A program made the translations under genes and the position numbers. DNA of 64,000 nucleotides from Leptotrichia sp. oral taxon 221 (lineage in GTDB: Bacteria; Fusobacteriota; Fusobacteriia; Fusobacteriales; Leptotrichiaceae). The notes below the pieces were generated by a model. It was given only the letters and a program-made list of their open reading frames with translations. It had not been told where the DNA came from and did not search any database. This document shows, in pieces, positions 25,942 through 48,338 of this stretch (the stretch's first letter is position 1; each line of letters opens with the position of its first letter). The stretch covers positions 1,488,001 through 1,552,000 of the forward strand of contig NZ_CP072378.1 of the NCBI RefSeq assembly GCF_018128245.1, written 5' to 3'.

Positions 25942-25980
25942 TATAAAATTATATAATCTAAAATCAAAATCACATTTATA

Positions 25981-26147
25981 TATCTGACAGCTCACCATTA
26001 CACATTATAATGACAGTCCTATAGATATTCTCCATAGACCCAGTAGCAAAGTTCGTCACTCTTTGTACTTCGGCGATTTCCCCTTTCAAGTTATTTCATC
26101 GAATTGACTTTCTCCATAAATCTACTCTTAAAAACCGCACCTCTATC
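25981..26147 (-). promoter_or_regulatory. Lysine riboswitch (L box)
   Basis: The minus strand carries the L-box core in order: AGAGGTGCGG at the 5' side of P1, AAGAGTAG, GAAAGGGGAAATCGCCGAAG, TTGCTACTGGG, and a closing CTGTC that pairs with the 5' GATAG. Length is about 167 nt. Lysine binding should favour the downstream terminator and switch off lysA, lysC, dapF, dapA, asd and the transporter. Confidence 0.95.
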
Positions 26148-26154
26148 TTATAAC

Positions 26155-32192: not shown

Positions 32193-32355
32193 CTGAACCT
32201 CTCACGACTGAAGTCGCGAGGTTCTTAAGTACTATTTAGTTTCTTTTGAATATCTAATATTCAAATACTAGCTAATTTCCTTAAGACTTTAATGGACAAG
32301 CTCTCCGTTGAGAACATTTACATCCTGTTGGCTCGGTTCAAAACCAGTTTTTATT
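32193..32355 (-). ncRNA. Probable omega RNA (TnpB guide RNA) region
   Basis: The 163 nt between the tnpB stop and the transposon right end are non-coding and hairpin-rich (for example GAACCTCGCGACT...AGTCGTGAGAGGTTC). In IS605 elements this region is the 3' part of the guide RNA. The guide would be the flanking DNA after the right end, beginning TATAAAAGTTGG. Confidence 0.6.
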
Positions 32356-33783
32356 TTAAAATCCCATACACTTTAATGTTTTTACATTTCCTTTTTTTAT
32401 TCTTTCAATTTCTTCATTATGCAATTTAACAAAATTTTTAAATTCTTTTTGAGCTTTTTCTATATTTACCTCTTCTAAATTTTCTTTTACATTCTTTATT
32501 AAAAATGCAGAATACAAATCTCTTTGTATTTTATTTCCTAATATTTCTATCCATCTTTTTGATAGACTTTTCTTTTCATATTCATTTGTACTATGATTTA
32601 ATTGACTAGCTTTTACTTTAAAAGTATCAATTTTTATTATATTTTTTCCAATATATTCTAATTTTCTATTTATTATTTCAATTAATAATGCAGGTGCTCT
32701 ATTTGATAAAGATTTTCCAAATCTCTTTTTCTTTTTAAATTTTCCAGTCTTTTCAGATATTTCAGTTTTCTTACTTCTTCTCTGTAAAGCTTTAAAACTC
32801 ATATTTTCAACTTTTACTATTGTTCCAATTTCTAGTATACTATTCGCTAAAATATTATGAGATTGCTCCCTTTTCTCTGCGATTTTTTTCTGTAAATTTG
32901 AAAGTTTTAACTTTGTTTTTAGATATGATTTGCTCTTTTTCCATTTTTCTTTATTTTCTATATTAATAGTACCATCAGCATTGTATTTATTAGGATTGTT
33001 TGCTCTTCTCTGTCTATCTAGTTTTCTTTGTAGTCTTATTTTTTCTTTTTCATTTATTTCTATATTTTCAGCTAAAATCTTTAATTCTACTTTATTATCA
33101 CTAACGATTGCTATTGTTGAAGTTCCTATATCAATTCCAATTTCATTTTCTCCACCAACTTTATGTTTTTTAGGAGGTGTCCCCTCAAAAGTTATTTGAA
33201 CGTAGTATTTATTTTTTCCATTTACAACTCTCTTAAGTAATCTACAATACAATAACTTATCTAAAAAACAACTTTGTGCATATTTATCATTATTTTTTAT
33301 TATTACAGGAATCTTTAAGCCTAACCAAGATATGCAACAATCTTCTTTAAAAAATCTAAGTCCCGTAATATTACCTTTTTCTCTAACAGAATAGAAATTT
33401 TCATAACTTTTAAAATATACTTTTTTAGCTTTACCATACTTAAATTTTTCATAAGTTGCAAAAGCTCTTTCAGCTAATTCTTGTCCCATTTGAGAACCTA
33501 TATTCTTTTTAAATTTTTGTGTCATAGGTTTCACATACTTATTTAATTCAAATTTAGATATTAAATATTTTTTATCTAATTCTTTATATCTTTTAGATTG
33601 CTCTTTTTTATCTAAATTACTGATTTCTTTATATTCAGAAGAATTTATCATTTTTCTATGTCTTTTAAGAATTTCACTAAGGCAAGAATTATATATCATT
33701 CTGGCTATGTTTAGTCTCTTTTCTAAAATATGTTCTTGCCATAGTTCAGTTTTTAAAGCTAATGTCAATACATAATTCGCCAT
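32356..33783 (-). CDS. tnpB: TnpB RNA-guided nuclease of the IS605 element
   Basis: A 475-residue OrfB/TnpB. The split RuvC site is complete: Asp218 in IGIDIGTS, Glu326 in VKVENMSF and Asp422 in QRDLYSAF. The CxxC zinc finger usual before the last Asp is missing; the region KASQLNHSTNEYEKKSL has no cysteines. The N-terminal helix-turn-helix/REC part begins MANYVLTLALKTELW. TnpB proteins cut DNA matching the omega RNA guide and help retain the transposon after excision. It lies 12 bp downstream of tnpA. It is clearly a different lineage from the two IStron TnpBs. Confidence 0.9.
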   Translation of the reverse strand: MANYVLTLALKTELWQEHILEKRLNIARMIYNSCLSEILKRHRKMINSSEYKEISNLDKKEQSKRYKELDKKYLISKFELNKYVKPMTQKFKKNIGSQMGQELAERAFATYEKFKYGKAKKVYFKSYENFYSVREKGNITGLRFFKEDCCISWLGLKIPVIIKNNDKYAQSCFLDKLLYCRLLKRVVNGKNKYYVQITFEGTPPKKHKVGGENEIGIDIGTSTIAIVSDNKVELKILAENIEINEKEKIRLQRKLDRQRRANNPNKYNADGTINIENKEKWKKSKSYLKTKLKLSNLQKKIAEKREQSHNILANSILEIGTIVKVENMSFKALQRRSKKTEISEKTGKFKKKKRFGKSLSNRAPALLIEIINRKLEYIGKNIIKIDTFKVKASQLNHSTNEYEKKSLSKRWIEILGNKIQRDLYSAFLIKNVKENLEEVNIEKAQKEFKNFVKLHNEEIERIKKGNVKTLKCMGF

Positions 33784-33795
33784 AGTTCCTCCTTC

Positions 33796-34197
33796 TCATC
33801 TTTCTTTTTGAGTTTGGATATATCTTTTTATTTGTTCTTCAGTATTTTCTGAAACAGTTGCAACAAAATAACTAGGGTTCCATAAGTGTCCATTCCATAA
33901 CTTATTTTTTATCTCGGGATGTTTTAAAAAAAGGTTTCTTGCAGAAATTCCTTTGAATATTTTCAAAATATTAGGTATGAAATGTTGAGGACTACACTCA
34001 ATTAATATATGAATATGGTCTAAATCTGTTTCCATTTCTATTATTTTTATATTATTTTCATTAGAAATTTCAATTAATAATTCTTTTAAAGTTTTTTCAA
34101 TATCATCAATTAATACTTTCCTTCTATATTTTACACACCACACTATATGATATTGAATTGAATATACATATCCTCTTCCAAAATTAATATTTGACAT
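33796..34197 (-). CDS. tnpA: IS200/IS605 TnpA transposase (HUH-Y1)
   Basis: A 133-residue Y1 transposase that cuts and joins single-stranded transposon ends. The HUH motif is His61-Ile-His63 in DLDHIHILIE, and the nucleophile is Tyr126 in EEQIKRYIQTQ. It also contains the family block NGHLWNPSYFVATV. It is intact and is the only tnpA in the window, so it is the candidate enzyme for moving the tnpA-less IStrons at 41904 and 46415, whose end hairpins resemble those of this element. Confidence 0.95.
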   Translation of the reverse strand: MSNINFGRGYVYSIQYHIVWCVKYRRKVLIDDIEKTLKELLIEISNENNIKIIEMETDLDHIHILIECSPQHFIPNILKIFKGISARNLFLKHPEIKNKLWNGHLWNPSYFVATVSENTEEQIKRYIQTQKER

Positions 34198-34336
34198 TAT
34201 TTATCACCATTTTTATTATACCTTATGTATTTAACTATTTCAAATTTTTTGTAAACAAAAAATACGCCATTCATCTCACGACTAAAGTCGCGAGTGTTTT
34301 GGCATAATTCATAAAAATATTGAAGAAAAGAAAAAG

Positions 34337-36061: not shown

Positions 36062-36559
36062 CTGAATCTTACCACAACCAAGCCTTATTTTATTTAAACT
36101 CAATTGTTTTAAAGATTGTCGTTCACATAAGTTCGTTACTTCTCATGCAGTTCTCTCAATATTCTTATTCCTTAATTTGTTAAAGAAACAAAAATATCTT
36201 GAACTTCTTAATATTTCTATTAAGCACAGACTATATCTTATCCTACGGCTTTACCCGTTTAGGTCTACCCACTTCCACCAACTTTGGTGTACTTCCCTCA
36301 AGAGGAATAGTCGTTGAACTTTACTTTTCAGTCTTAGCTGCTGATCTTCCATTACTCTAGCACTTAGGATTTAACCTTATGCCATCTAGTTTGTTTTTTC
36401 TGCTTTCGCCACATTCACACCTACATCTCAAAATATTTTTAAGATATTATGTTGTAGTCAAACTAGCTTTAGGATTTTCCAGCAATTCGAGTAGTATTGG
36501 ATGGCTCTCATATCCATCTCTACGCATATATTTCTATATACGCTGACTAAATTTTTTTA
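36062..36559 (-). ncRNA. Stand-alone group I intron in marR
   Basis: A 498-nt group I intron without an ORF. On the minus strand it has the R element GTTCAACGACTA (36308-36319) and the S element AAGATATAGTC (36229-36239), which pair as P7 (GACTAT/ATAGTC). The Q element ATCAGCAGC and a P element TTGCTGGAAAA are also present. The 5' exon ends TTGAT, and the internal guide GTCAG (36543-36547) pairs with it, giving the required U.G wobble at the splice site. The intron ends CAG, the omega G. It is about as well conserved with the IStron introns as they are in core, but lacks transposon end hairpins and tnpB. Confidence 0.88.
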
Positions 36560-36877
36560 ATCAAATTTCTTTTTCAATCTCTTAGACTTTCTTGTCAAAC
36601 TTACAATCGTCTTTCTTCTATCATTCTCATCTACTTCTTTCATAATCAAACCAGCATCTTCCATCCGATTCAGCATTGTTGTTAACGTATTTAATGCCAA
36701 TCCTGATTTTTGAGAAATTTCTTTATTACTGATACTTCCTTCTTCCCAAAGAACTTCTAAAATCCTACTTTGCTCAGCATTGTAGTCCTTCACATTTTCT
36801 TTAATCAAAGCCTTATTCAAAAGTCTTCCATGTACTTGTTTTATTTTATTTATATATAAATTACAACGATGTCTCAT
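36560..36877 (-). CDS. MarR-family regulator, exon 1
   Basis: 106 codons encoding the DNA-binding part of a MarR repressor: AEQSRILEVLWEEGSISNKE, then the recognition helix LALNTLTTMLNRMEDAGLI and the wing MKEVDENDRRKTIVSLT. Read without splicing, the frame stops at TAA inside the intron right after KKKFD, losing the C-terminal dimerisation helix. With exon 2 (35930-36061) the protein is 149 residues. A TAG in frame precedes the ATG, so this start is the earliest possible; the ribosome-binding site is weak. Targets are unknown; the convergent MATE pump is a positional candidate. Confidence 0.85.
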
Positions 36878-39032: not shown

Positions 39033-39074
39033 ATTCTCTCCTTTTCAAATATTAATTTTTATCTGAAAAACAAT

Positions 39075-39228
39075 CACTATAATACTTTTGTGCTATAATT
39101 TCTTAATAGTTTTGTATATTATTAAGGTTGTGATAACCTAAAGAGCATCCGCCGAATTTTCGATAACTCTTTTTCCTCGTCATCTTTATTTAATATAATT
39201 TTTATATTTAAAATTAAGATCTGGCGCT
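39075..39228 (-). ncRNA. glmS self-cleaving ribozyme
   Basis: The minus strand leader carries the glmS ribozyme landmarks: cleavage site A/GCGCCAG (39221-39228), GATGACGAGG, the catalytic-core ATCGAAAATTCGGCGGATGC, and a GGTTATCACAACC segment, then an ATTAAG hairpin before the glmS ribosome-binding site GGAGAG. Glucosamine-6-phosphate is the cofactor. The exact 3' border is approximate. Confidence 0.93.
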
Positions 39229-39269
39229 TTTTAATTTTTATTTTTTATTTTTCAGACTTTTCACTTTAT

Positions 39270-40358: not shown

Positions 40359-41903
40359 TTACAATTCTAACAATATTTTCTTCAATTCATTCATTTTATC
40401 TCTTAACTTAATCGCTTCCTCAAAATTAAGTTCTTCTGCCAATTTTTGAATCTTTTTATTAAGTGATTTAATTTCTTTTTCAATTTCAAATTGACTTCTA
40501 TATTCTTTTTTAGCCTTATTAATTTTATCTTCTTGTTCAATTTCGTAATCTACAAGCGATTCTTCTATTTGTCTTTCAACAGTTTTTGGATTTATATTAT
40601 GCTCTTTATTGTATTTTTCTTGGATTTCACGCCGTCTGTTAACCTCATCAATTGCTTCTTGCATCGAACCTGTCATTCTATCAGCATACAAAATAACCTG
40701 TCCGTGTGCATTTCTTGCAGCTCTACCCATCGTTTGAATCAATGATCTTCTAGAACGTAAATATCCTTCTTTATCGGCTTCTAAAATTGCTACAAGCGAA
40801 ACTTCAGGAATATCAAGGCCCTCTCTCAAAAGGTTTATCCCAACCAAAACATTGAATACTCCTTTTCTCAAATCCCTTATAATTTCCGTTCTTTCAAGCG
40901 TATCAATATCCGAGTGCATATATTTTACCTTTATCCCAAATTCCAAATAATAATCTGTTAACTCTTCAGCCATTTTCTTCGTTAATGTCGTTACAAGGAC
41001 CCGTTCTCTTCGATTTGTTCTCTCTTTTATTTCATCCATCAAATCATCAATCTGATTTTTAGTTTCCCTAATTTCAATATCTGGCTCCACAATTCCAGTC
41101 GGTCTAACCAATTGCTCAACAATTTCTCCATTAGAATGTTCCAATTCATAATCACTTGGAGTTGCAGAAACATAAACTACTTGTGGTATTTTCCCAAAAA
41201 ACTCTTCAAATTTCAATGGTCTGTTATCGTACGCACTTGGTAGCCTAAATCCGTTGTCAATCAATGATTGCTTTCTTGCTCTATCCCCTTTGTACATCCC
41301 ATTTATTTGTGGCACAGAAATATGCGATTCATCAAGAAATACAACCAAATCATCAGGAAAATAATCAATCAACGTATCTGGTGCCTCTCCTTCAGATTTC
41401 CCAGTCAAATATCTAGAATAATTCTCAATTCCCTTACAATAACCAATTTCATTAATCATTTCCAAATCGTATTCTGTTCGCTGTTTTATTCTTTGCGCTT
41501 CCAACAATTGTCCATTTTTTTGAAAAAAATGAACTCTTTCTTCCATTTCTTTTTTTATTTGAGAAAATATTTTTTCAGTATCTTCAGTCGATAAATAGTG
41601 TGTCGCCGGCATTATTGTTACTCTTTTTATTGTCTTAATTTTTTGTCCTGTAAGCGTATTTATCTCAGAAATACTTTCTAAATCATCTCCAAAAAACTCA
41701 AATCTATATCCTGTATCCAAATACGATGGATGCAAATCAATAATATCACCTTTCACTCTAAATTTCCCACGCTCAAAAGCTATATCATTTCTCTCATATC
41801 TCAATAAAATCAATTTTTTTATCAGCTCATTCCTATCAATACCATTTGTTTCAACATCAATTGGTATTGATTTTTCCTTATACGCTTCTGGCGATCCCAA
41901 TCC
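40359..41903 (-). CDS. uvrB: Excinuclease ABC subunit B, exon 2 (C-terminal part)
   Basis: 515 codons including the stop, continuing UvrB after the IStron. The frame resumes with GLGSPEAYKEK, exactly where the conserved UvrB segment [14 protein letters not shown] was cut. It contains domain 2, helicase motifs IV-VI (VLVGINLLREGLDIPE, QTMGRAARN) and the C-terminal UVR motif (LNKKIQKLAEELNFEEAIKLRDKM). A TTG codon four residues in could look like a start, but it has no ribosome-binding site. Exon 1 (147 codons) plus this exon gives a 661-residue protein, the normal UvrB length, with no codon lost or gained. UvrB verifies DNA damage with UvrA and loads UvrC. Confidence 0.92.
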   Translation of the reverse strand, partial: GLGSPEAYKEKSIPIDVETNGIDRNELIKKLILLRYERNDIAFERGKFRVKGDIIDLHPSYLDTGYRFEFFGDDLESISEINTLTGQKIKTIKRVTIMPATHYLSTEDTEKIFSQIKKEMEERVHFFQKNGQLLEAQRIKQRTEYDLEMINEIGYCKGIENYSRYLTGKSEGEAPDTLIDYFPDDLVVFLDESHISVPQINGMYKGDRARKQSLIDNGFRLPSAYDNRPLKFEEFFGKIPQVVYVSATPSDYELEHSNGEIVEQLVRPTGIVEPDIEIRETKNQIDDLMDEIKERTNRRERVLVTTLTKKMAEELTDYYLEFGIKVKYMHSDIDTLERTEIIRDLRKGVFNVLVGINLLREGLDIPEVSLVAILEADKEGYLRSRRSLIQTMGRAARNAHGQVILYADRMTGSMQEAIDEVNRRREIQEKYNKEHNINPKTVERQIEESLVDYEIEQEDKINKAKKEYRSQFEIEKEIKSLNKKIQKLAEELNFEEAIKLRDKMNELKKILLEL

Positions 41904-41982
41904 CTGAACCTCCCACGACTAAAGTCGCAGGGTTCTAAAATCTTTAAAAACATTTAAAAATTTTCTAAGAAGTTTGATAGCT

Positions 41983-43230
41983 TTACACTACCCTTATTCT
42001 TTTAGGTGTGTTCAGCTCACCTCTATTGTATAGGACACTTAAGTCCACAACTTTACTTTTTCTTAGAATATTTAATGCTCCATTACAATCTGCATTTATG
42101 AGTTTACCTGCGCTTGTTTGATATAGTCCTCTTTTTATTCTTTTTCCACTGAATATATATTCTTGCAGATTTTCCTTATCATATATTGGAATTTCATCTC
42201 CATCAAAGAAACTTGCTTTTGATGTATAACTCTCTTCTTGTAGTTTAAATTCTATTCCATATAGTTTACATAGATATATTAATTTATCTCTTAATTTTCC
42301 ATATGGTATATTTACAAAGTTTTGATTATTTATACTTCCAATATTTGATTTTCTTTGAAAATCCTCGTTATATCCTAGAACTATTCTTCCTATATCATTA
42401 TTAAGACAATAATTTACAATTATTCTTGCTGTTTTTGAAAGATAATCTTCTATACGATTATTTCTCTTTCTGGCTATTCTCTTTTGTCTTAATGTTGTTC
42501 GCTCAATCTTTTGCTTATCTTTTATACTTTGTAATTTTGCATTTATCTTATTATAGTATTGATTAATAGATTTTAATTTTCTACCATCTATTATGAATGA
42601 GGATCCAGTATTTGTAACACAAGTGCAAAGATTGTCTATACCTGAATCAATTCCTAGTACATTTTCTTTATTTAATTCCCTTTGAACTTCTTCTACCTCA
42701 TAAGTATATTGAATTTCAAAGTACCTAGAATGTTGTTTTGGTATTATTCTAATTTCTTTTATCTTCTTGCCTTTTAATACTGGTGGTAGCTTAATTTTAA
42801 CTTCCTGATGAGTTTTCTTAAACGAATTTGAATAAGGAACTATCATCATATCATCTTTTAATCTAACAAAACCTATAACAAGAGTTGTAAATCCATCTTT
42901 AGCAAGATATTTAGGTAATTTTATTTTCTTATTATCATATTGACCATTTTTAGCAAGTTTTAAAAGTCCAAAAAATGATTTGAAACTTCCGTCTACTTCT
43001 TTTAGAATTTGTTGAGCCATATTAGAATTTAACTTCTTATAGTTCTCACTATTTTTAAGCATTTTATAGTTTTCATTATAACTTAAATACTTTTTCTTAT
43101 TAAAATAGTATTGTCTAATATTGTATATAGCTTCATTAGTTAAGTTCTTGGCTATATGAGATAAATATTTTAAATTTCTAAACTCTTTTTTACTAAGATG
43201 TTTTATTTGTTGTTTTAATGTTAAATACAT
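41983..43230 (-). CDS. tnpB: IStron TnpB nuclease, copy A
   Basis: A 415-residue TnpB. The RuvC Asp195 (LGIDSGIDN) and Asp381 ([10 protein letters not shown]) are present. At the usual Glu position the motif reads IVLGYNEDF, with Gly286 instead of Glu. The nearby [10 protein letters not shown] (Glu332/333) is the likely alternative acidic residue, as in other TnpBs with this motif (inference). There is no zinc-finger cysteine pair. A strong AAGGAGGTGA precedes the ATG. It is expected to use an omega RNA from the element's 3' end, whose guide would be the uvrB exon 2 sequence beginning GGATTGGGATC. The reading frame is undamaged. Confidence 0.9.
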   Translation of the reverse strand: MYLTLKQQIKHLSKKEFRNLKYLSHIAKNLTNEAIYNIRQYYFNKKKYLSYNENYKMLKNSENYKKLNSNMAQQILKEVDGSFKSFFGLLKLAKNGQYDNKKIKLPKYLAKDGFTTLVIGFVRLKDDMMIVPYSNSFKKTHQEVKIKLPPVLKGKKIKEIRIIPKQHSRYFEIQYTYEVEEVQRELNKENVLGIDSGIDNLCTCVTNTGSSFIIDGRKLKSINQYYNKINAKLQSIKDKQKIERTTLRQKRIARKRNNRIEDYLSKTARIIVNYCLNNDIGRIVLGYNEDFQRKSNIGSINNQNFVNIPYGKLRDKLIYLCKLYGIEFKLQEESYTSKASFFDGDEIPIYDKENLQEYIFSGKRIKRGLYQTSAGKLINADCNGALNILRKSKVVDLSVLYNRGELNTPKRIRVV

Positions 43231-43324
43231 ATATAATCACCTCCTTTTCATCAGAGATATTATACCGTATATTCTACATTTTATCTATTAAAAAGTAATA
43301 TTTTTTAAATATTTTTAAAGTTTT

Positions 43325-43804
43325 TAAAACCCCACAATAGTGGGAAGCGTCGTTCACATAAGTACGCTACTACTTACGCAGTTCTCTTATGAACTTCTTG
43401 TTATCTCTAACAAGCACAGACTATATCTTATCCATATCCTATTTCAAGGACTTAGGCGAAACCACTTCCAATACCAATCGCTTGTATTGTACTCCCCTCA
43501 CGAGGGATAGTCGTTGAACTTTCCTTTTCAGGATTAGCTGCTGATTGTCTATTATCATAATGTTTAGGATTTAACCTTGCATTATCTAGTATATTTTTTC
43601 TGCTTTCGCCACCATCACACCTATACCATATTTTAACGAAGGTATTATGTTGTGGTTATACTAGCTTTAAGAGTTCCCAGCAGTTCAGTTTCTTTGTTGC
43701 ACGGTTTTGCTCCGTGTCTACATACAAGTTTCCCTATATGCTTACTAAAATTTTCGTGCAATTCATCTCACGACTAAAAGTTGCGAGTGTTCTTGCACTA
43801 TTTA
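43325..43804 (-). ncRNA. Group I intron core of IStron A
   Basis: The 5' 480 nt carry the group I core: guide GTAAG (43741-43745) pairing with exon end TTTAT, P element TGCTGGGAAC, Q AATCAGCAGC, R GTTCAACGACTA (43508-43519) and S AAGATATAGTC (43419-43429). R and S pair as P7. The transposon left-end hairpin is inserted in the loop between the 5' splice site and the guide. The 3' splice site is the far end of the element (41904). Confidence 0.88.
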
Positions 43805-44245
43805 ATAAATAGCTGAAACTGACGCTACAATAATTACATCTCTTCTGTTTAAAAGTGCCGCCGTTGCCGCATGTCGCAGTTTATCAATTTCATCATTAAT
43901 CGAAGAATCTTTTTCAATATATGTGTCAGTTTGCATAATGTAGGCTTCTGGCTGGTAATAATCATAATATGAAACGAAATATTCTACTGCATTTTCTGGA
44001 AAAAATTGTTTATATTCATTATACAACTGTGCAGCCAAAGTTTTGTTTGGAGCCATTATTAATGCTGGTCTATTTACTCTTTCGATAGCATTTGCAATAG
44101 TAAAAGTTTTTCCAGAACCTGTAACTCCTAACAAAATTTGATCCGAAATCCCATTTTCTAGATTTTCGACAATTTTTTCAATTGCTTCAGGTTGATCTCC
44201 AGTCGGTTTAAATTTTGAATGTATCTTAAAATCCATATTCATCAT
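43805..44245 (-). CDS. uvrB: Excinuclease ABC subunit B, exon 1 (N-terminal part)
   Basis: 147 codons of UvrB with Walker [13 protein letters not shown], the motif [12 protein letters not shown], and the beta-hairpin region [11 protein letters not shown] that clamps damaged DNA. It runs to ASVSAIY and then meets the IStron, whose first codon is TAA. Unspliced, this would give a useless 147-residue fragment. Ribosome-binding site AGAGGA precedes the ATG pair. It is the last gene of the operon that begins with the corrinoid adenosyltransferase, 18 bp after a TPR gene. Confidence 0.93.
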
Positions 44246-45840: not shown

Positions 45841-46414
45841 CTATTTTTTAGTTCTGAATACTTTTGGACTTCTTTTATAAACTGTTTCTTCCACTTTCAA
45901 TTTCAAATTAACGACACATGCGATTACGAAAAAATAATCTGACAAACGATTTATGTATATCAAGCCAGTCTCATTTACAGCCTCACCTTCATCAATTAAT
46001 GCCACCATTTTTCTCTCTAATCTCCTTGTTGCTGTCCTAACCATATGAAGAAAACTTGAAACTTTACTTCCTCCAGGAATTATGAAATGTTCCATTTTAG
46101 GTAAAATTGAAATATATTCATCCATTCTTTGCTCAAGATACTTAACGTCTTCTTCTTTCTGTTTATAAGGTCTCAATTCTCTTGGAGTCGCCAAATCACT
46201 TCCACAATCAAAAAGTTGTTGCTGAATTTCCTCACACTCTTTTCTAATATCGTCCAAAATCTCATTTTCTCTCATTTCTGCAACAACTACTGCAAGCAAA
46301 GAACAAACCTCATCTGCAGTCCCACAAGCCTCTATTCTTTTATGAGTTTTTTTTACTTTATCGCCACCATACAATTTTGTGAATCCTTTATCTCCATATT
46401 TTGTATATATTTTC
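45841..46414 (-). CDS. pduO: Corrinoid (cob(I)alamin) adenosyltransferase, PduO type, exon 2
   Basis: The coding part after IStron B. With the upstream AT from 48325-48324, the G at 46414 makes ATG, followed by KIYTKYGDKGFTKLYGGDKV, the signature N-terminus of PduO-type enzymes. Further on are RIEACGTADE, the conserved RTATRRLER block and YINRLSDYFFV. The total is 191 residues, normal for the family. It transfers the adenosyl group of ATP to cob(I)alamin to make coenzyme B12. Without splicing the start codon and ribosome-binding site are 1.9 kb away; a TTG at 46374 is a poor internal alternative. It leads an operon with two TPR genes and uvrB. Confidence 0.9.
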
Positions 46415-46493
46415 CTGAACCTCCCACGACTAAAGTCGCAGGGTTCTAAAATCTTTAAAAATATTTAAAAATTTTCTAAGAAGTTTGATAGCT

Positions 46494-47741
46494 TTACACC
46501 ACCCTTATTCTTTTAGGTGTGTTCAGTTCACCTCTATTGTATAGGATACTTAAATCCACAACTTTACTTTTTCTTAATATATTTAATGCTCCATTACAAT
46601 CCGCATTTATGATTTTACCTGTGCTTGTTTGATATAGTCCTCTTTTTATTCTTTTCCCACTGAATATATATTCTTTTTGATTTTCTTTATCATATATTGG
46701 AATTTCATCTCCATCAAAGAAACTTGCTTTTGATGTATAACTCTCTTCTTGCAGTTTAAATTCTATTCCATATAGTTTACATAAATATATTAATTTATCT
46801 CTTAATTTTCCATATGGTATATTTACAAAGTTTTGATTATTTATACTTCCTATATTTGAATTTCTTTGAAAATCTTCATTATATCCTAAAACTAATTTTC
46901 CTATATCATTATTAAGACAATAATTTACAATTATTCTTGCTACTTTTGAAAGATAATCATTTATACAATTATTTCTCTTTCTAGTTATTCTCTTTTGTCT
47001 TAATGTTGTGCACTCAATCTTTTGCTTATCTTTTATACTTTGTAATTTTGCATTTATCTTATTATAGTATTGATTTATTGATTTTAATTTTCTACCATCT
47101 ATTATGAATGAAGTTCCAGCATTTGTAACGCAAGTACAAAGATTATCTATACCTAAATCAATTCCTAGTGCATTTTCTTTATTTAATTCCCTTTGAACTT
47201 CTTCTACCTCGTAAATGTATTGAATTTCAAAGTACCTAGAATGTTGTTTTGGTATTATTCTAATCTCTTTTATTTTCTTACCTTTTAATACTGGTGGCAG
47301 CTTAATTTTAACTTCCTGATGAGTTTTCTTAAACGAATTTGAATAAGGAACTATCAGAATATCATCTTTTAATCTTACAAAACCTATAACAAGAGTTGTA
47401 AAACCATCTTTAGCAAGATATTTAGGTAATTTTATTTTTTTATTATCATATTGACCATTTTTAGCAAGTTTTAAAAGTCCAAAAAATGATTTGAAACTTC
47501 CGTCTACTTCTTTTAGAATTTGTTGAGCCATATTAGAATTTAACTTCTTATAGTTCTCACTGTTTTTAAGTATTTTATAGTTTTCATTATAACTTAAATA
47601 CTTTTTCTTATTAAAATAATACTGTCTAATATTATATATTGCTTCATTAGTTAAGTTCTTGGCTATATGAGATAAATATTTTAAATTTCTAAACTCCTTT
47701 TTGCTAAGATGTTTTACCTGTTGTTTTAAAGTTAAATACAT
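46494..47741 (-). CDS. tnpB: IStron TnpB nuclease, copy B
   Basis: A 415-residue TnpB, about 95% like copy A and also intact. The start is placed at the ATG with GGAGGTGAT upstream; an in-frame GTG nine bases earlier is part of that ribosome-binding site. Motifs are [18 protein letters not shown] -> in this copy LVLGYNEDF with Gly at the usual Glu position, [10 protein letters not shown], and [10 protein letters not shown]. Copy B has its own promoter-like TTGACA and TGGTATAAT (20-bp spacing) at 47769-47800, whereas copy A has lost the TTGACA. The guide would begin GAAAATATATAC, from the start of the adenosyltransferase gene. Confidence 0.9.
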
Positions 47742-47768
47742 AGATATCACCTCCTTTTCATCAGAGAT

Positions 47769-47800
47769 ATTATACCATGTATTCTACATTTATCTGTCAA
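47769..47800 (-). promoter_or_regulatory. Internal promoter for tnpB copy B
   Basis: TTGACA (47795-47800) and an extended -10 TGGTATAAT (hexamer 47769-47774), spacer 20 bp. It would drive tnpB and the omega RNA independently of the host transcript. Confidence 0.5.
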
Positions 47801-47844
47801 AAAAGTAATATTTTTTATTTATTTTTAAATATTTTTAAAGTTTT

Positions 47845-48323
47845 TAAAACCCCACAACAGTGGGAAGCGTCGTTCACATAAGTGCGCTACTACTTATGCA
47901 GTTCTCTTATGAACTTCTTGTTATCTCTAACAAGCACAGACTATATCTTATCCATAGTGTATTTCAACACCTTAGGCGAAACCACTTCCAATACCAATCG
48001 CTTGTATTGTACTCCCCTCACGAGGGATAGTCGTTGAACTTTCCTTTTCAGGATTAGCTGCTGATTGTCTATTATCATAATGTTTAGGATTTAACCTTGC
48101 ACCATCTAGTATATTTTTTCTGCTTTCGCCACCATCACACTTATACTATATTCGCACTTAGGTACTATGTTGTGGTTATACTAGCTTTAAGAGTTCCCAG
48201 CAATTCAGTTTCTTTGTTGCACGGTTTTGCTCCGTGTCTACATACAAGTTTTCCTATATGCTTACTAAAATTTTCGTGCAATTCATCTCATGACTAAAGT
48301 TGCGAGTGTTCTTGCACTATTTA
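47845..48323 (-). ncRNA. Group I intron core of IStron B
   Basis: Same core as IStron A: guide GTAAG (48261-48265) against exon end TTTAT, R GTTCAACGACTA (48028-48039), S AAGATATAGTC (47939-47949), with P7 pairing intact. The 3' splice site is at 46415 after GGTTCAG. Confidence 0.88.
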
Positions 48324-48338
48324 ATAAATTCTCCCTCT
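48324..48338 (-). promoter_or_regulatory. 5' exon of the adenosyltransferase gene: Shine-Dalgarno and split start codon
   Basis: The minus strand reads AGAGGGAG (48331-48338), then AATTTAT, ending at the splice/insertion point. The final AT is the first two bases of the start codon. The spacing to the reconstructed ATG is 5 nt. Confidence 0.85.

Follow-up and report, generated by a model that had tools for sequence, protein, structure and literature searches.

How the start codon of a gene can be read when a mobile element lies inside it is the question raised by pduO of Leptotrichia sp. oral taxon 221. The gene, coding for a PduO-type corrinoid adenosyltransferase, is located in a window of 64,000 nucleotides (contig NZ_CP072378.1, positions 1,488,001 to 1,552,000), to which all plain coordinates below refer. 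An IStron of 1909 bp was found at positions 46415-48323 of the minus strand, directly at the beginning of the gene. It is considered highly probable, on the basis of sequence comparison, that the element belongs to the group A IStrons and was inserted after TTTAT at the start of pduO, that splicing would create the AUG codon, and that unspliced RNA would have no usable start.

The insertion site at pduO

On the minus strand, the element begins with TAAATAG at 48323 and ends with GGTTCAG at 46415. The 5' flank is AGAGGGAGAATTTAT, ending at 48324, and the 3' flank is GAAAATATATAC, beginning at 46414. When the flanks are joined, AGAGGGAG-AATTT-ATG-AAA-ATA-TAT is obtained, i.e., the N-terminus of PduO with a Shine-Dalgarno sequence 5 nt before ATG. 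Such a rebuilding of the initiation region, through splicing or precise DNA excision, had been proposed in the initial annotation of this locus, and the sequence supports it. The element coordinates given there proved exact, as judged by the element ends and by empty sites in relatives.

The pduO gene 3' of the element is complete. Its reading frame is open over 190 codons, the PF01923 match starts from profile position 1, and the TIGR00636 score lies above the cut-off of 108 (Table 1). A PduO homologue was present in 26 of the 60 genomes searched with the protein, this genome counted. The insertion was found in this genome only; in the 25 other genomes with a homologue, no element was found within 70 bases upstream of the PduO match.

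In all 17 loci from the same family (L014-L030), ATG immediately precedes codon 2, and in nine of them it is part of TTTATG. Since this ATG is uninterrupted in all the same-family homologues, the pduO start codon is split between AT and G, in agreement with the initial annotation. The empty sites in the PduO loci of relatives also fix the element boundaries from outside.

Table 1. Features at the pduO locus and elsewhere in the window
Feature	Position	Strand	Basis
IStron between AT and G of the pduO start codon	46415..48323	-	Ends common to sibling copies; empty sites in relatives
5' exon AGAGGGAGAATTTAT: Shine-Dalgarno AGAGGGAG, spacer AATTT, AT of start codon	48324..48338	-	Sequence
TTTAT, target motif and exon part of P1	inside 48324..48338	-	TTTAT at 55/57 copies
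G that would complete ATG once spliced	46414..46414	-	Sequence; empty sites of relatives
pduO from codon 2, stop included (PduO-type corrinoid adenosyltransferase)	45841..46413	-	PF01923 2.7e-53; TIGR00636 183 bits
Group I intron catalytic core	47917..48265	-	RF00028 54.7 bits, gathering 50, E 2.9e-13, core scanned alone
P1 3' strand with internal guide (UUUAGUAAG), pairing with exon/intron UUUAU/UAAA, U.G at splice site	48261..48269	-	
P7 5' strand GACUAU; partner AUAGUC at 47939-47944	48027..48032	-	Invariant in 30 copies
Left-end subterminal hairpin, IS200/IS605 type (CUCGCAACUUUAGUCAUGAG), within P1 extension	48287..48306	-	Sequence/fold
Inverted-repeat arm 1, AU-rich, encloses tnpB	47821..47852	-	32 nt, 94% complementary
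Inverted-repeat arm 2	46441..46472	-	32-nt arms, 94% complementary
tnpB, start GTG 47750 or ATG 47741	46494..47750	-	PF01385 6.6e-29; PF07282 7.9e-9
Right end GAACCCTGCGACTTTAGTCGTGGGAGGTTCAG, with a subterminal hairpin and, as its last base, the predicted terminal G of the intron	46415..46446	-	Same or similar end in 56/57 copies
Second IStron, 1901 bp, 95% identical, splitting the uvrB coding sequence	41904..43804	-	Sequence
uvrB exon 1	43805..44245	-	Named by eye from translation
uvrB exon 2	40359..41903	-	Named by eye from translation
Intron-less IS605-type element after TTTAT, similar end hairpins, GGTTCAG end	32193..34310	-	Sequence

Structure of the element and its intron

The element had been annotated as an IStron, and both parts of such a chimera were identified: a group I intron core and, 3' of the intron, a tnpB gene of the IS200/IS605 type, with subterminal hairpins at both ends of the element. 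No ORF A (tnpA) was seen inside it. The flanks of tnpB, folded as a duplex, reach -43.8 kcal/mol, and long duplexes flank tnpB in the 50 copies folded. A tnpB promoter recognized by eye (TTGACA, 20-nt spacer, TATAAT) was absent from a promoter scan and is not claimed; comparison of TnpB with the PDB yielded no useful match.

For comparison, sibling copies were collected. An intron match was obtained in 10 of 33 same-family genomes, and 54 loci from relatives together with the three in this genome, 57 copies from nine genomes, were examined. Copy numbers per genome (at least 19 in the relative G029) are lower bounds, since the search scored only part of the candidates in copy-rich genomes.

The Rfam group I model passed its threshold only with the core scanned alone. 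Scans of the whole window and of a 2.1-kb stretch did not report the intron, and in five loci containing siblings or solo introns no group I intron was matched either. The fold was drawn by hand on the pduO copy, in which all helices are present: P1, the P1 extension, the left-end hairpin, P2, P2.1 and P3 to P7, followed on the 3' side by P7.1, P7.2, P8, P9, P9.1 and P9.2.

Conservation of this fold was counted on 30 of the 57 copies; six copies without exact GAACGA, 20 near-duplicates and L129 were left out, while L081, L107 and L118 were retained irrespective of the near-duplicate filter. Over the 95 pairs, 97.5% of the cells pair. Two-sided changes were present at 23 pairs, compared with 7.3 in shuffles, which ignore the relatedness of the copies; none of 500 shuffles reached 23. 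With the partners slid, pairing was only 33-44%, a drop due in part to the use of one of these rows for drawing the fold.

Group I traits are all present in the pduO intron, namely the U.G pair at the 5' splice site, the P3-P7 core and the terminal G. The target is TTTAT at 55 of the 57 copies and TTGAT at two (L128 and L129). The guide GUAAG was found in 54 copies, each after TTTAT. It is lacking in L127, where the stretch is lost, and in the two copies after TTGAT, which carry GUCAG. Two solo group I introns of this genome likewise follow TTGAT, with the guides GUCAG and GUCAA. Because guide and target change together, the 5' splice site is placed after TTTAT, and the empty sites place the 3' splice site after the terminal G of TTCAG. 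Among the 55 copies after TTTAT, L127 alone was seen to be without a guide; its insertion point leaves just two codons of the reading frame, and splicing there would hardly be needed.

An alternative hand pairing, AAUUUAUU with GAUGAAUU, would move the 5' splice site one base further. It was rejected, as the exon would then differ from the empty sites; the GUAAG guide of 54/57 copies, covarying with the target, also stands against it.

Distribution of copies in related genomes

A GGTTCAG-type end was found in all copies except L113, leaving 56 sites that could be joined. With genes called by a simple gene caller, 43 of these sites lie in called genes in the sense orientation, three in start codons and ten elsewhere; none is antisense. 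Two of the ten (L096 and L129) are in long sense frames overlooked by the caller. As a background, TTTAT sites without an insertion, over 222 kb of the window and its flanks, were classified with the same caller, giving 855 sense and 1210 antisense sites. The sense bias of the copies against this background was pronounced (p 6e-17, or 8e-16 without three same-site repeats). A first background, obtained with a slightly different caller and with occupied sites included, comprised 746 sense, 1017 antisense and 10 start sites. For the reading-frame phase, no clear difference from the background was observed (p 0.08).

Pfam matches of the exon pieces of 45 loci included DnaB, guanylate kinase, MutL-like, RuvB, RecG-like, SmpB and Mfd-like proteins, as well as QueA in three genomes; five of the 45 loci had no match at 1e-5. 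Such a distribution fits retention of the elements only where RNA splicing would repair the message.

Several further observations were made on these copies. The QueA-family gene is interrupted at three different positions in three genomes (L103, L104 and L123). A single insertion site in a glucosamine-6-phosphate isomerase-like gene is occupied in three genomes (L090, L111 and L117), and one site in a DUF956 gene is occupied in two genera (L044 and L124). Remnants of 45 bp follow TTTAT in L143 (516-565) and on the minus strand of L144, near its 5' end; they join the IStron left end directly to the right end at a common hairpin and look like deletion scars.

Start codons split in other genomes

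Splitting of a start codon between AT and G was observed at three of the 56 sites: pduO in this genome, gmk in G029 (L081) and an O-methyltransferase gene in G024 (L107). Among the loci listed for these two genes, the interrupted locus counted, ATG stands directly before codon 2 in 19 of 24 for gmk and in 18 of 24 for the methyltransferase; the empty target TTTATG occurs in three and eight of those ATG loci, respectively. There is one strong gmk match in G029, and the IStron in its start codon is 95% identical to the pduO copy. The gmk gene is essential in E. coli and B. subtilis.

At both of these loci an in-frame start is present in the 3' part of the element, TTG in L081 and ATG in L107, with no Shine-Dalgarno sequence evident by eye. 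These codons weaken the predicted strict dependence on splicing at the two loci. In another copy, L118, the 5' exon contains the Shine-Dalgarno sequence AGGAGG, and the 3' exon has ATG from its second base on.

The enrichment of start codons (three start and 43 sense sites among the copies; eight and 855 in the background) corresponded to p 0.015, and to 0.084 without the pre-selected pduO; the earlier caller gave 0.016 and 0.087, respectively. This enrichment is weak, and chance hits on TTTATG may be enough to account for it.

Expression of pduO and alternative explanations

According to the proposed mechanism, an IStron composed of a group I intron and a tnpB-only IS200/IS605 element was inserted after TTTAT of the TTTATG at the pduO start. 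In the primary transcript, the internal guide GUAAG would pair with UUUAU, and the ribozyme would cut after AU and ligate this end to the G located directly beyond the element's terminal G. The joined exons would yield AUG 5 nt after AGAGGGAG, whereas the unspliced RNA would remain without a usable start. That the pduO copy splices we infer from three observations: the ribozyme fold is conserved, the copies in called genes are all in sense orientation, and a relative has a copy in its gmk start codon.

It would be conceivable, though unlikely, that splicing at this copy is poor or absent, so that pduO is knocked out and an EutT-like enzyme covers the need. A second PF01923 member is indeed encoded in this genome (C1:161650-162117), its nearest NCBIfam family being EutT with 70 bits, below the cut-off of 226. 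This second adenosyltransferase may make pduO dispensable, and the restriction of the insertion to this one genome among those with a homologue also speaks for a knock-out. On the other hand, pduO has kept its frame of 190 codons open, no helix of the fold has been lost, and copies with 95% identity are situated in uvrB and, in a relative, at the start codon of its single gmk gene.

The same second protein bears on the earlier proposal of a splicing-dependent B12 adenosylation. Searches of the genome matched EutB and the PduC family, both of which use adenosylcobalamin as cofactor, and gave no match to the CobA-type family. From these matches, the lack of a CobA-type match and the second PF01923 protein, it follows that PduO is probably useful, but perhaps not the only enzyme of its sort. 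The mechanism proposed at pduO is largely supported by the sequence; its extension to B12 adenosylation as a whole was overstated.

It had further been claimed that unspliced mRNA contains a ribosome-binding site without a start codon, followed by a gene without a ribosome-binding site. The first part is borne out, as no in-frame ATG, GTG or TTG occurs on the unspliced pduO strand from the last stop to codon 2, and the first one after it is TTG at codon 15. The second part has to be corrected, because GGGAGG, a Shine-Dalgarno-like run, is located in the right end of the element, about 9 nt 5' of an in-frame ATA (codon 3 of pduO), and recurs at the element end in sibling copies. Translation of unspliced mRNA from this AUA, with initiation driven by GGGAGG, would agree with the spacing and recurrence of the run, but is very improbable given that AUA is a very weak initiator codon and that no standard start codon is available in frame before codon 15. 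Since only ATA is in frame at a fitting distance from GGGAGG, dependence of pduO on splicing is still expected, and the gene is probably translatable only once the RNA has cut itself out.

Expression of PduO from cells with precise TnpA-mediated DNA excision instead of RNA splicing is hardly credible: it would give an identical junction, and two Y1 tnpA genes are present in the genome, one of them in the window element at 32193-34310 with matching end hairpins, but the 43:0 sense-only distribution is expected of RNA splicing and not of strand-neutral DNA excision, and the intron fold is maintained with covariation.

With splicing as the preferred explanation, the pduO insertion is most likely a tolerated selfish insertion and not an evolved switch. 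Regulation by splicing is possible but unsupported, and the more general idea that IStrons splitting start codons act as translation gates, with protein output following ribozyme activity, appears quite unlikely. If it were true, output would follow the guanosine cofactor, Mg2+, RNA-binding proteins and competition with TnpB guide-RNA processing. In G029, a guanosine-dependent ribozyme would then gate the GMP-phosphorylating enzyme encoded by gmk, a possible feedback loop.

With a split start codon, IStron splicing could be followed in vivo by a clear yes-or-no readout, since without spliced RNA there is no AUG. Should gmk be essential in its host, survival of that bacterium would rest on the activity of a ribozyme that a transposon has carried into a start codon. 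The family, with its sense-only copies in which guide and target covary, constitutes a large natural set for studying IStron origins, and the intron-less relative and the solo introns of this genome are also useful for asking how IStrons arose.

Comparison with known systems

The type of element is already known; new is the recurrent start-codon position, found also in two related bacteria. Judged from its target, end, intron traits, position of the IS part and tnpB, the pduO element is assigned to group A, which includes CdISt1, FnISt1 and LbISt1 of Leptotrichia buccalis (Tourasse et al. 2014, PMC4227781). Group A IStrons are described there as using the targets TTGAT, ATTAT or TTTAT without target duplication and as ending in TCAG. 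Like them, the pduO element lies in a gene directly after TTTAT, with no duplicated target, and has the TCAG 3' end; its intron possesses P7.1, P7.2, P9.1 and P9.2 (IA2 traits), its IS part follows GAACGA downstream of P9.2 (exact in 51/57 copies, the pduO copy included), and its ORF B is a TnpB of the IS200/IS605 class (PMC4227781).

No ORF A was seen in the pduO element, much as ORF A is truncated in several published group A elements. Certain differences were noted with respect to the same description (PMC4227781). The 32-nt AU-rich repeat around tnpB contrasts with the short, balanced repeats of 6-10 bp, a trait described for group A but not used to define it; a long AU-rich inverted repeat is given as a trait of group B. 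One LbISt1 per strain was reported, against the at least 19 copies in G029. The terms "start codon" and "initiation codon" are absent from the main text of that paper, in contrast to the start-codon insertion found here. Five IStrons at TTGAT have been described in Fusobacterium nucleatum, and the available passages of that report do not mention "start codon" (PMC1924603). No published IStron-split start codon was named in the titles and abstract openings surveyed, a coverage that takes in few subscription papers.

Splicing that controls initiation has its nearest precedent in C. difficile, where a c-di-GMP aptamer is combined with an allosteric group I ribozyme (Lee et al. 2010, as described in PMC3984707). 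In both systems, the presence of a functional initiation region on the mRNA would be determined by group I splicing. The c-di-GMP ribozyme moves the ribosome-binding site by a shift of the 5' splice site, whereas here a mobile element splits the start codon (PMC3984707). No riboswitch family or aptamer near the element was reported by Rfam, a weak negative since the same scans also missed the intron.

For IS607-type IStrons, a conflict between TnpB guide RNA and splicing was reportedly described by Zedaveinyte et al. in 2024. As is said of those elements, the intron 3' end and a guide-RNA scaffold would share the right end of the pduO element; theirs are reportedly of the IS607 type (group B), while the present one is of the IS200/IS605 type (group A).

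Further elements in the window

Three full IStron copies were found in this genome; those in pduO and uvrB have the same orientation and are about 4.5 kb apart. Both uvrB exons are open. The initial annotation had suggested that uvrB might become splicing-dependent through the operon. This was not confirmed: uvrB has its own IStron (41904-43804) within the coding sequence and would therefore depend on splicing directly.

The intron-less element at 32193-34310 has an open tnpA and a 475-aa tnpB-like frame. It is a candidate for supplying TnpA in trans, by which the IStrons without tnpA could be mobilized. The solo intron with guide GUCAG occupies 36119-36559 (minus strand; 3' end provisional), at the end of a MarR-like frame (36557-36877; PF01047 3.4e-14), with no IS part in the stretch examined; the second one, with guide GUCAA, was found in L045. 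Solo introns related to IStrons have been described in some Fusobacterium strains (Tourasse et al. 2014, PMC4227781).

A TnpB search of genome contigs matched two Synergistales relatives. Relatives with 69-74% identity over 85-89% of the element were found in the plasmid records NC_010371.1, NZ_CP085956.1 and NZ_CP019656.1, which belong to Finegoldia magna (two records) and Paenibacillus larvae, both species absent from the 2014 table of IStrons (PMC4227781). The window also contains a lysine riboswitch at 25980-26153 and a glmS ribozyme at 39068-39239 (minus strand), both above the Rfam gathering threshold.
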